Shown here piece after piece: positions 43,136 to 45,988 of a stretch of 64,000 bases of DNA (its first letter is position 1; every line of letters starts with the position of its first letter). The notes below the pieces were generated by a model. That model made no database searches. It was not told the DNA's origin and was given only the letters and a program-made list of their open reading frames with translations. This DNA comes from Gemmatimonadaceae bacterium. Its GTDB lineage: Bacteria; Gemmatimonadota; Gemmatimonadetes; Gemmatimonadales; Gemmatimonadaceae. The translations under genes were made by a program, and so were the position numbers. Location of the stretch: positions 124,001 to 188,000 of the forward strand of contig JALHNZ010000001.1 in NCBI GenBank assembly GCA_022843265.1, in the 5' to 3' direction.

Positions 43136-44158
43136 ATGAACGACGGGGCGAGCGTTCGCAAAAAACGCGTCGGCGTGATCGGCTCGTTCGTGTGGGATGT
43201 GATCCACGGGCGCGACAAGCGTGCCGTGCCGGTTGAGGAATGGGGCGGCATTACCTACGCCCTGGCCGCGCTCGACGCGGGCTTGTCTGATGACTGGGAA
43301 ATCGTGCCGCTGCTCAAGGTGGGCGATGATCTGGCCGATCGCGCGCGACACTTCATTCGTGGACTGCGGCATATGGCACCCGACGCCGCGCTCGTCGCCG
43401 TGCCCTACCCCAACAATCGTGTGGAGCTGCGATATCACGATGCCGAGCGGCGGAGCGAGTTCCTGAGCGGAGGCGTGCCTGGCTGGACATGGCTCGGCCT
43501 CAAGCCACTGCTTGAATCAGCAGAACTCGATGCGCTGTATGTGAACTTTCTGAGCGGCTGGGAGCTCGATCTCGAAACGGCGCAGTTGCTGCGCGCGCAT
43601 TTTCCCGGACCGATCTACTGCGATCTGCACATGCTCGTGATGGCGGTGCAACCGGACGGTCTGCGTGTGCCGCGTCCGCTTCCCGACGTTGCGGCATGGT
43701 GCGCGTGCTTTGATCTGCTGCAAGTGAATGAAGAAGAGATGGCCATGATGGCGCCGGATCCGATGATGCTCGCGGCCACGGCCATGGCAGCCGGTGTGTC
43801 GTGTCTGTCCGTCACCCTCGGCAGTCAGGGCTCCATTTACGTGGCGGCGCCGGGCTTTCACACGATTCATGACATTGCGCCGCGCCGTGCGCTGGCGACC
43901 GGCCCGCGCGGTGGCAGCAGCGCGCTGGGTGCATTGCGTACAGCGCGCGCGCCGGCGGTGATCGCGAACGTCCAGGGAGACGGTGATCCCACTGGATGTG
44001 GTGATGTGTGGGGCGCGACCCATTTCTCGCGACTGCTCTCCGGTGATAACTTGGAAACGGCGATGCGCGCGGCAGCACAGGCGGCGGCGCGGAACGTTGA
44101 GCATCGCGGGGCGACCGGCCTCGCTTCCTATCTTCGGGGAGAACTGCACATCTCGTGA
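43136..44158 (+). CDS. PfkB-family carbohydrate/nucleoside kinase
   Basis: A 340-aa ribokinase-fold protein from the ATG at 43136. The N terminus VGVIGSFVWDVIHGRDKRAV and EWGGITYALAALDAG, and the C-terminal GDGDPTGCGDVWGATHF with the catalytic Asp (anion-hole motif TGCGD rather than TGAGD), place it in the family. The middle is divergent, with a Met-rich segment (MAMMAPDPMMLAATAMAAG), and substrate cannot be told. Its TGA overlaps the GTG of the HATPase gene. That coupling links it to a signalling-type trio, which is unusual for a metabolic kinase. Confidence 0.87.
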   Translation: MNDGASVRKKRVGVIGSFVWDVIHGRDKRAVPVEEWGGITYALAALDAGLSDDWEIVPLLKVGDDLADRARHFIRGLRHMAPDAALVAVPYPNNRVELRYHDAERRSEFLSGGVPGWTWLGLKPLLESAELDALYVNFLSGWELDLETAQLLRAHFPGPIYCDLHMLVMAVQPDGLRVPRPLPDVAAWCACFDLLQVNEEEMAMMAPDPMMLAATAMAAGVSCLSVTLGSQGSIYVAAPGFHTIHDIAPRRALATGPRGGSSALGALRTARAPAVIANVQGDGDPTGCGDVWGATHFSRLLSGDNLETAMRAAAQAAARNVEHRGATGLASYLRGELHIS

Positions 44159-45090
44159 CGACTGTGATCAACGTGCCACCGTCGCTCGATGAGCAATCGT
44201 TCGAACAGATTGTTGAGCAGCTCGCACCGCTGCCCCCCGATCAGAAAGTGCTGTTTGACGCACGGCGTGCGCGCTGGGCGTCTCCGTTTGGACTCACCGC
44301 ACTGTTGTGCGCCGCGCAGTCGCGAACGGAACGGGCTGACTTTGCGGTGCCCGAGCATCCGGACACGGCATCGTACTGGGCGCGCACCGGCTTTTTTCGT
44401 CACGCCGCCGATGTCTTCACGCTGCACGGACACGTACCCCGACCGCGCGATGGGCAGGACTCCGACGTGTTGCTCGAGATCACGCCGGTGATCCAGAGCG
44501 ATGATGTCCACACGGTCGTGACCCGCATTCAGCACAAGGCGGCCGAGATTCTCCATGGTCAGCTCAAACTGGAGACGGCGGCCACGATGGGGTTTGGCAT
44601 GATGCTCAGCGAAGCGTGCCAGAACATCGTGGAGCACGCGGGGCGCGGCGGCTGGGTGGCGGTGCAGACCTACAATTTCCGTCAACGACTCGGCCGTCGT
44701 GTGGTTGTGATTGCGGTATGCGACGCCGGCGTCGGCTTCCGGCAATCGCTGGAAAGCGACCCCTCGCATCGACGTGATGATCGGTGGGGAGATGCGCGCG
44801 CGCTTGAGTCTGCTGTGCTGCACGCCATGAGTCGGTTCAAGGCGCGCGATGCGGGTCGCGGACAGGGTCTCGCGGGCATTCGTCGCTTCTGTGCACGCTG
44901 GGACACAAAACTTTCGGTACGAAGTGGCACAGCACGCATTGCGCTTGTGCCTGCATGGGACGAAGATGAAGCGTTGCAACAACGCTTGCCATACTTTCCC
45001 GGTGCTCAGGTGCAAATCATGATTCCGGAGCGTCTGGCCTCAGATCCGCCGTCGGCAGCTCGCTCGCGCTCCACGGAGCGTGCGAGATGA
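44155..45090 (+). CDS. HATPase protein with N-terminal STAS-like domain
   Basis: A soluble 311-aa protein. Residues 1-95 look like a STAS-like segment (KVLFDARRARWASPFGLTAL). Residues 110-275 are a GHKL ATPase domain: N box MMLSEACQNIVEHA at 149-162, G1 box VCDAGVGF at 188-195, G2 box GRGQGLAGIRRFC at 234-246. There is no phosphoacceptor histidine or membrane segment, so it is more like an anti-sigma/serine kinase (SpoIIAB/RsbW relatives) than a sensor kinase. It is joined by GTGA to the PfkB gene and by ATGA to the next gene, which has a STAS-like domain. The pair suggests partner-switching control. Confidence 0.82.
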   Translation: MTTVINVPPSLDEQSFEQIVEQLAPLPPDQKVLFDARRARWASPFGLTALLCAAQSRTERADFAVPEHPDTASYWARTGFFRHAADVFTLHGHVPRPRDGQDSDVLLEITPVIQSDDVHTVVTRIQHKAAEILHGQLKLETAATMGFGMMLSEACQNIVEHAGRGGWVAVQTYNFRQRLGRRVVVIAVCDAGVGFRQSLESDPSHRRDDRWGDARALESAVLHAMSRFKARDAGRGQGLAGIRRFCARWDTKLSVRSGTARIALVPAWDEDEALQQRLPYFPGAQVQIMIPERLASDPPSAARSRSTERAR

Positions 45091-45650
45091 TGCATCACAT
45101 CGATGTGAGCACCGTGTTGCGAGGCGCCGTCTGTGAGCTGTATTCAAATCTCGTGACGCGTCCCACGGGCGCGGCGGTACGCACGGCGATTGAGGCCCTG
45201 CTGGCCGAAGGACAGCCCCCCACGATCACCACGATCGATTTTTCACACGTCAATCTGATTGATTTTTCCTGTGCCGACGAGATCGTGGCCAAACTGCTCC
45301 TGCAACACGTCGCGACGACGCACGAAGAGGCGCGCTACGTATTCTTTCGCGGCATGCGCGAAGATCATCTGGATGCGGTCGAAGCGGTGCTTGAACATCG
45401 TGAACTCGCGCTCGTGTGGGATCGCGATGGCCGACCCGAGCTGCTCGGTCGCGTAGACGACGACGAACGCCTTGCGTGGAATGTGGTGCGTACGGTGGGA
45501 CCGGTGTGGGCGCCGCACGTGGCGAGCTCCATCGGAGCCAGTACGGACCACGCCGAGTTCCAGCTTACCCGACTCTGGCATCGTCGTCTTGTCATGCGAC
45601 AAAGTGATGGATACGTGGTGCCCGGAGTGGTGCGCGGAGTCGCGGCCTGA
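45087..45650 (+). CDS. STAS-like/winged-helix regulatory protein
   Basis: A 187-aa protein. The first 110 residues resemble a STAS-like domain of the DUF4325 type (TTIDFSHVNLIDFSCADEIV, AKLLLQH). The C-terminal part (EFQLTRLWHRRLVMRQSDGY, VVPG) looks like the recognition helix and wing of a winged-helix domain. DUF4325 proteins are known partners of GHKL ATPases. Its ATG overlaps the stop of the HATPase gene and its stop overlaps the next start (TGATG), so the two proteins should interact or act together. The DNA-binding role is tentative. Confidence 0.75.
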   Translation: MMHHIDVSTVLRGAVCELYSNLVTRPTGAAVRTAIEALLAEGQPPTITTIDFSHVNLIDFSCADEIVAKLLLQHVATTHEEARYVFFRGMREDHLDAVEAVLEHRELALVWDRDGRPELLGRVDDDERLAWNVVRTVGPVWAPHVASSIGASTDHAEFQLTRLWHRRLVMRQSDGYVVPGVVRGVAA

Positions 45651-45988
45651 TGACGGACAAGAAGGATCCGGGAGCGCCGCGCATCGGGCGCGGCATCTTC
45701 TCCGGGATGGCACCCCCGCTGCAAATCGTCGGATACATTGGCACGCGCCGCGGTGATCCGGATCGCGGCCCGCTCATTCGCATGCGTCCAGACGACGCGC
45801 TGATTCGGCTGCTGTCTGATGGAGAGCTGGTGCGCATCATGGGTCCAAGGCGCAGCGAGTTTGCGCAGCTGGTGCTTGACGAATCGCTTCCACGCGGCGG
45901 CGTGGTCGTGCGCGATCTGGCGGGTGTGACCGTCACTGAAATCGTGCGTGTTATCAAAGCAGACTTCGATTCGCCCCGTACGACCTGA
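45650..45988 (+). CDS. Hypothetical protein coupled to HATPase/STAS pair
   Basis: A soluble 112-aa protein, translationally coupled (TGATG) as the third member of the trio. After a flexible start (MTDKKDPGAPRIGRGIFSGM), residues 60-108 show alternating strands (DGELVRIMGPRRSEFAQLVL, GGVVVRDLAGVTVTEIVRV), reminiscent of a double-psi beta-barrel such as those of molybdopterin-binding or aspartate-decarboxylase-like domains. I do not recognise a family and give no function. The stop lies 23 bases before the PLP-enzyme start. Confidence 0.72.
   Translation: MTDKKDPGAPRIGRGIFSGMAPPLQIVGYIGTRRGDPDRGPLIRMRPDDALIRLLSDGELVRIMGPRRSEFAQLVLDESLPRGGVVVRDLAGVTVTEIVRVIKADFDSPRTT

Follow-up and report, generated by a model that had tools for sequence, protein, structure and literature searches.

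A predicted kinase-substrate switch related to CapK-CapS in the core genome of the class Gemmatimonadetes

The stretch of 64,000 nucleotides from a Gemmatimonadaceae bacterium analysed here (the window) carries four consecutive same-strand genes, which encode a PfkB-family kinase, a HATPase, a STAS-like protein with a winged helix and a small protein designated P4 (Table 1). The start and stop codons overlap as the original prediction described, with GTGA between PfkB and HATPase, ATGA between HATPase and STAS-like gene, and TGATG between the latter and P4. The HATPase and the STAS-winged-helix protein appear, on balance, to be a CapK-CapS/VapK-VapS-type switch of kinase and substrate, vertically inherited in the class core genome and acting on a protein rather than on DNA.

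The HATPase and its STAS-winged-helix partner

The HATPase reaches the Pfam family HATPase_c_2 with 27.7 bits (cut-off 27.4). Its structure model, which like the other models is an AlphaFold2 single chain built on class alignments, has a pLDDT of 88.5. The protein contains a degenerate STAS domain (residues 1-93) followed by a SpoIIAB-like GHKL kinase domain (approximately 103-295). The best structural match of the model is SpoIIAB (Z 14.5, root-mean-square deviation 2.5, 134 residues), whereas ordinary histidine kinases score Z of about 9-10. The presence of a STAS-like segment in the HATPase, already proposed in the original prediction, is confirmed by the match of residues 1-93 to STAS domains (1vc1, Z 9.9) and by the match of the protein profile to the SpoIIAA-like PDB chain 4hyl over this segment (E=0.0019). 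The N-box residues Glu153 and Asn157 and the G-box glycines (DxGxG, GRGxG) are invariant in the alignment, which retains 96 rows of 101 (window included) after a length filter. The STAS segment of the kinase has no evident phosphoacceptor serine, because position 44 is Pro in 96/96 sequences and position 45 is mostly Tyr (60/96). The window kinase also matches phrog_3364 over residues 14-292 (E=5.9e-15).

The STAS-like protein yields a model with a pLDDT of 93.9 and structural matches both to STAS domains and to winged helices, in agreement with the proposed fusion of a DUF4325-like STAS domain to a winged helix. In the Pfam searches, the window protein matches only STAS_2 (E=0.041) and has no match to DUF4325 (PF14213) at E up to 1. 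At that threshold DUF4325 is matched by six of 46 relatives (best E=0.0012), and TrmB, MarR and IclR are also found among the relatives. The protein shares with DUF4325 the pattern TR..G, DF and S..DE. Residues T24, R25, T27, G28, R32, D51, D59, S61, C62, A63 and E65 are 100% conserved in 101 rows. Ser61, which is aligned by hhalign to Ser54 of CapS, is thus present in 101/101 proteins, including all 12 with an eroded or missing winged helix; these 12 also retain D59. The phosphorylation site of the STAS-like protein therefore looks intact from the alignments. The SpoIIAB-like fold of the kinase, the conserved linkage of the two genes and the STAS serine support the partner-switching type of kinase and substrate that had been predicted.

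Table 1. Coordinates of the four overlapping genes in the window
Gene	Position	Strand	Description
PfkB	43136..44158	+	PfkB-family (ribokinase-like) small-molecule kinase; usual, dispensable operon partner
HATPase	44155..45090	+	STAS-GHKL protein kinase, CapK-like, without N-terminal helix-turn-helix (HTH); 311 aa
STAS-like	45087..45650	+	STAS (1-121) and winged helix (122-180); CapS-like putative substrate; putative phosphoacceptor Ser61
P4	45650..45988	+	Small family-specific protein, translationally coupled; outside the core pair

Distribution, linkage and neighbouring genes

The survey comprised 150 genomes of the phylum Gemmatimonadota, 144 from the class Gemmatimonadetes and six from outside it. 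The STAS-like protein is found in 141/150 genomes, all within the class (141/144), with one gene per genome; the two matches in G125 are pieces of a single gene. The three class genomes in which it was missed are G131, G096 and G097. G131 holds a fragment similar to the winged-helix part (E=4.2e-7), and its miss may be an assembly loss. The six genomes from outside the class gave no match to the STAS-like protein, and none to the profiles of the kinase (threshold E=1e-6) and of PfkB (threshold E=1e-10).

Neighbourhoods were analysed in 100 of the 141 STAS-positive loci. The kinase and STAS genes lie on the same strand in 100/100 loci and are separated by 110 bp or less in 97/100, the spacing being exactly -4 in 62, so that the co-occurrence expected for the two proteins is conserved and the linkage far exceeds chance. 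The exceptions are a 357 bp gap in L109 and two loci of family f6, in which the two genes are separated by one for a cyclophilin-type peptidyl-prolyl isomerase (L063:5418-5957 and L065:6579-7046). Present in single copy and inherited vertically, the kinase-STAS pair belongs to the core genome of the class Gemmatimonadetes, whose members are soil and water bacteria. In two genomes of 2.0 Mb (G110 and G122) the kinase gene is placed directly after lepA, with neither PfkB nor ROK in between. The retention of the pair in genomes of this size, with ROK and PfkB gone from the locus, argues that the pair has an important role of its own.

The other two members of the overlapping set are less constant. 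PfkB is found in 94/100 loci, in 92/94 of which it lies upstream of the HATPase at 110 bp or less, with a gap of -4 in 73/94. Two of the six PfkB-less loci (L039 and L066) reach the contig end, and both genomes do contain the gene; G032 keeps the pair, with PfkB relocated elsewhere in the genome; and in G110, G122 and G035, which carry the pair, a genome-wide search detected no member of this PfkB family. The joining of the module to a sugar/nucleoside kinase, as first suggested, thus holds for a usual partner and not for a core component, and PfkB was rejected as an obligatory one. The window PfkB protein scores 32.5 bits against Pfam PfkB (PF00294; gathering cut-off 25.8). In an alignment of 87 rows, left from 95 (window included) by a length filter, its motifs DPTGCGD and NxxE are invariant or nearly so and D-x-TGCGD is invariant. 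P4 occurs in 32/32 loci of the window's family (f1) and in 0/68 other loci, and was rejected as a core part. Of the co-occurring set of three proteins that had been proposed, the HATPase/STAS pair is conserved class-wide and P4 is restricted to one family. P4 weakly resembles Molydop_binding, a molybdopterin-dinucleotide-binding domain (E=0.00045, below the Pfam cut-off).

The gene order in the window is lepA, GT9 glycosyltransferase, ROK kinase, PfkB, HATPase, STAS-like, P4, a pyridoxal-phosphate (PLP) enzyme, ftsE, ftsX and an envC-like gene. The labels of GT9, ROK, PfkB and the PLP enzyme, the latter of the Cys/Met-metabolism type, come from the Pfam search, and those of lepA, ftsE, ftsX and the envC-like gene from reading the sequence. 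Within the run, intergenic gaps are short, at 28 bp in front of PfkB and 35 bp in front of ROK. In families other than f1, the PLP-enzyme gene often follows directly on the STAS gene. The ratios of nonsynonymous to synonymous substitution (dN/dS) against a relative of the same genus (L031) are 0.13 for PfkB, 0.08 for the HATPase, 0.21 for the STAS-like gene and 0.09 for P4; therefore, all four open reading frames (ORFs) are real genes under purifying selection.

Relation to CapK-CapS and loss of the DNA-reading surface

The original prediction knew of no described system with this set, but the domain plan is shared by CapK-CapS, as reported by Chambers et al. (EMBO J, June 2026, PMC13373217). 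There, CapK is an HTH-STAS-GHKL protein and CapS a STAS protein with a winged HTH (wHTH). CapK phosphorylates Ser54 of CapS, upon which the CapS dimer is broken and released from the DNA, contacted through N145 and K151. Single-stranded DNA activates CapK by stacking on W68, and the HTH of CapK is dispensable. CapK-CapS adjoins an immune operon in 348 of 443 cases and is described as a mobile, immunity-linked, DNA-damage kinase switch. The same source presents VapK and VapS as related to CapK and CapS, with VapS restraining the VapC nuclease (PMC13373217).

The CapK and CapS sequences used for comparison are from an E. roggenkampii plasmid, the CapS accession being that of the paper. The profile of the window kinase aligns to CapK over 243 columns, starting at residue 36 (hhalign E=1.5e-10), and that of the STAS-like protein to CapS over 138 columns (E=2.1e-4, probability 46%), with Ser61 placed on Ser54; CapS is also a weak match of the latter profile as PDB 9Z71 (E=0.032). 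On these alignments, and with the intermediates described below, kinship with CapK-CapS has good support on the kinase side and is reasonable on the substrate side. Both systems have a STAS-GHKL kinase core, a kinase gene immediately followed by a STAS-wHTH gene (both present in 100/100 Gemmatimonadetes loci) and a STAS serine at the aligned position, invariant here. On the other hand, the window kinase begins at the STAS strand and lacks the N-terminal HTH of the 368-residue CapK. The position equivalent to W68 (position 10) is W/F/Y in 3/96 sequences, in a region where the alignment is weak and rests on an LDE/IDE anchor set by eye. The Gemmatimonadetes pair differs further in its chromosomal core operon, its class-wide vertical inheritance and the lack of an adjacent immune operon: none adjoins the window pair, whose neighbours are lepA, GT9, ROK, PfkB, the Cys/Met PLP enzyme and ftsEX-type genes. 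A PADLOC search gave weak matches to DrmA for the window kinase (E=4.9e-8) and likewise for CapK (8.5e-5); the match is read as a shared ATPase fold.

Intermediates between the Gemmatimonadetes pair and CapK-CapS exist in a Janibacter plasmid, in Nostoc and in a Marinitoga phage. The Janibacter and Nostoc DUF4325-winged-helix proteins match the STAS-like profile with E=1e-10 and E=4.5e-9, respectively, and each adjoins a STAS-GHKL gene. DUF4325 itself is matched by the Janibacter (2.1e-6) and Marinitoga (3.9e-16) pair members. On the Janibacter melonis plasmid (L142:2053-6399) the pair is divergent from ThiF and a possible JAB-domain gene, a locus that looks like a CapKS pair beside a Bub-like immune operon. 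In the Marinitoga phage MPV1 (L223:2402-3755), a STAS-GHKL kinase (phrog_3364) is accompanied by a DUF4325-only STAS gene without winged helix. A Phaeobacter plasmid (L140:4173-6014) holds a STAS-GHKL relative with a HEPN/RES-like protein ahead of it and a recombinase after it; the annotation of this locus shows no obvious STAS partner. The 'plasmids' collection gave no tblastn match to the window STAS-like protein itself. A pattern-based scan, run with a Nostoc-led alignment over 84,980 species genomes, yielded 150 relatives; it samples only kinases sharing one of two short peptide patterns, not the whole family. The best 80 of the 150 comprise two Nostoc, three labelled 'uncultured bacterium' and otherwise names that we take to be of the Gemmatimonadota type.

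The residues through which CapS contacts DNA are not kept in the Gemmatimonadetes proteins. Among the 89 of 101 STAS proteins long enough for counting (at least 170 aa), the N145-equivalent site is Asn in 1/89, and the K151-equivalent site is Lys/Arg in 8/89 and Asp/Glu in 52/89. The net charge of helix 152-165 is negative in 64/89 and positive in 12/89, with a median of -1, compared with +3 in CapS, +3 in Janibacter and +2 in Nostoc. Exposed positions of the recognition helix score 0.164 for conservation over 30 genomes, whereas LexA reaches 0.886. Pooled over 45 within-genus pairs, dN/dS rises from 0.08 in the STAS domain to 0.24 in the rest of the wHTH and 0.51 in the exposed recognition helix. 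Positive selection on this helix was considered for a single pair with a dN/dS of 2.4 (11 codons) and rejected; given the pooled value, only relaxed constraint is indicated. Furthermore, 12/101 proteins have an eroded or missing winged helix: it is cut down in 10 genomes of family f2, leaving proteins of 143-152 aa, and gone in two of genus g5 (120 aa). Direct DNA binding, which the original prediction had put forward, was consequently rejected as the conserved output: the contacts are lost, the surface is unconserved and mostly negative, and the domain is dispensed with in some members.

Possible outputs of the switch

In the mechanism that is favoured, the kinase would bind the STAS protein in the way that SpoIIAB engages SpoIIAA, as its fold and the published CapKS data suggest. 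A signal at the STAS-GHKL unit would lead to phosphorylation of Ser61, a role to which the invariance of this residue and its alignment to Ser54 point, and the modification would change the binding of the STAS face, either to itself or to a target protein. Since its DNA-reading surface is lost and two lineages manage without the whole domain, the winged helix probably does not provide the output by binding promoters. A VapS-like output would fit best, in which the STAS domain holds and releases a protein target; PfkB is a candidate target only where it is present. VapK-VapS-VapC (PMC13373217) offers the precedent of a STAS-GHKL kinase without HTH whose STAS protein has a protein and not DNA as output. 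It differs in that no VapC/PIN gene lies beside the pair in the window, where no PIN domain was found by Pfam among the seven proteins scanned, and in that most Gemmatimonadetes members keep the winged-helix fold in place of the VapS-type short tail. A PIN-domain-like ORF reminiscent of VapKSC lies upstream of the kinase in the locus from which PfkB has moved away (L063:2426-2893, genome G032). The kinase also resembles that of SiaB-SiaC of Pseudomonas aeruginosa, which is SpoIIAB-like (Foldseek match 6kko). The SiaB-SiaC partner switch acts on an enzyme rather than on a sigma factor, and SiaC belongs to a different STAS-like family without winged helix.

Several points weigh against this favoured reading. 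Most members conserve the core of the winged helix (L160, L163 and the RR at 166-167), hence the domain does something. Orthologous regulators that bind DNA can move to other sites, LexA is a single control for which 17/30 loci were usable, and the dN/dS values stand on a high proportion of synonymous differences (approximately 0.5-0.6) and on few codons for the helix. The hhalign alignment to CapS, besides its probability of only 46%, has a single sequence on one side. A repressor of the CapS type, in which the STAS-winged-helix dimer represses promoters until the kinase phosphorylates Ser61, would account for the domain and gene order shared with CapKS, for the winged-helix matches to MarR/ArsR-type regulators and for the retention of the wHTH in 89/101 proteins. 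Such a repressor is nevertheless unlikely in view of the missing DNA contacts, the mostly negative recognition helix with a surface unconserved beside the LexA control, the 12 proteins with an eroded or lost domain and the short gaps before PfkB and ROK.

The STAS protein could instead restrain PfkB, as VapS restrains VapC, with phosphorylation releasing the enzyme and tying the flux through a sugar/nucleoside kinase to the signal. The gene order with its -4 overlaps, the VapKSC precedent (PMC13373217) and the strict PfkB invariants are in keeping with such a three-gene switch, but the three genomes with the pair and no detected PfkB, together with the relocation in G032, make it rather improbable. 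The chances are slimmer still for a classical anti-sigma partner switch, where the kinase holds a sigma factor that the STAS protein sets free. The kinase fold is closest to SpoIIAB/RsbW, with their N-box Glu/Asn and G boxes, and the substrate retains its phosphoacceptor serine two residues after an Asp, as in SpoIIAA/RsbV. However, no sigma-factor gene is seen in the run of the window, the additional STAS domain on the kinase and winged helix on the substrate are unlike RsbW/RsbV, and a separate canonical STAS/HATPase/SpoIIE cluster is already present in the genome. This cluster, outside the window (G000, contig C9:23848-26205), has a STAS domain, an RsbW-type HATPase and a SpoIIE phosphatase domain one after another and might be a phosphatase source for the pair. 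The SpoIIE domain is detected in 65/70 pair-carrying genomes and undetected in G085, G110, G120, G122 and G132 (completeness 89-93%), so that a SpoIIE-type phosphatase may not be obligatory.

As to the origin of the proposed kinase-substrate switch with a protein output, a tentative scenario, given slightly less than even chances, is that an immune-type CapKS/VapKS switch was captured once by the ancestor of the class; the STAS protein would then gate a protein target and the winged helix would be a decaying or repurposed scaffold. If true, it would show a mobile defence regulator turning housekeeping. The open-access literature searched contains no printed work on partner switching in Gemmatimonadota, or on STAS/anti-sigma proteins in Gemmatimonas, and the pair opens regulation in this phylum to experiment. 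With its serine invariant and its DNA-reading surface decaying, it allows a clean test of what a pair of this type can switch besides a promoter. CapKS is described as mobile and immunity-linked; a single-copy, class-wide housekeeping relative, retained even at a genome size of 2 Mb, implies that the kinase-STAS family has a basic role in the cell.

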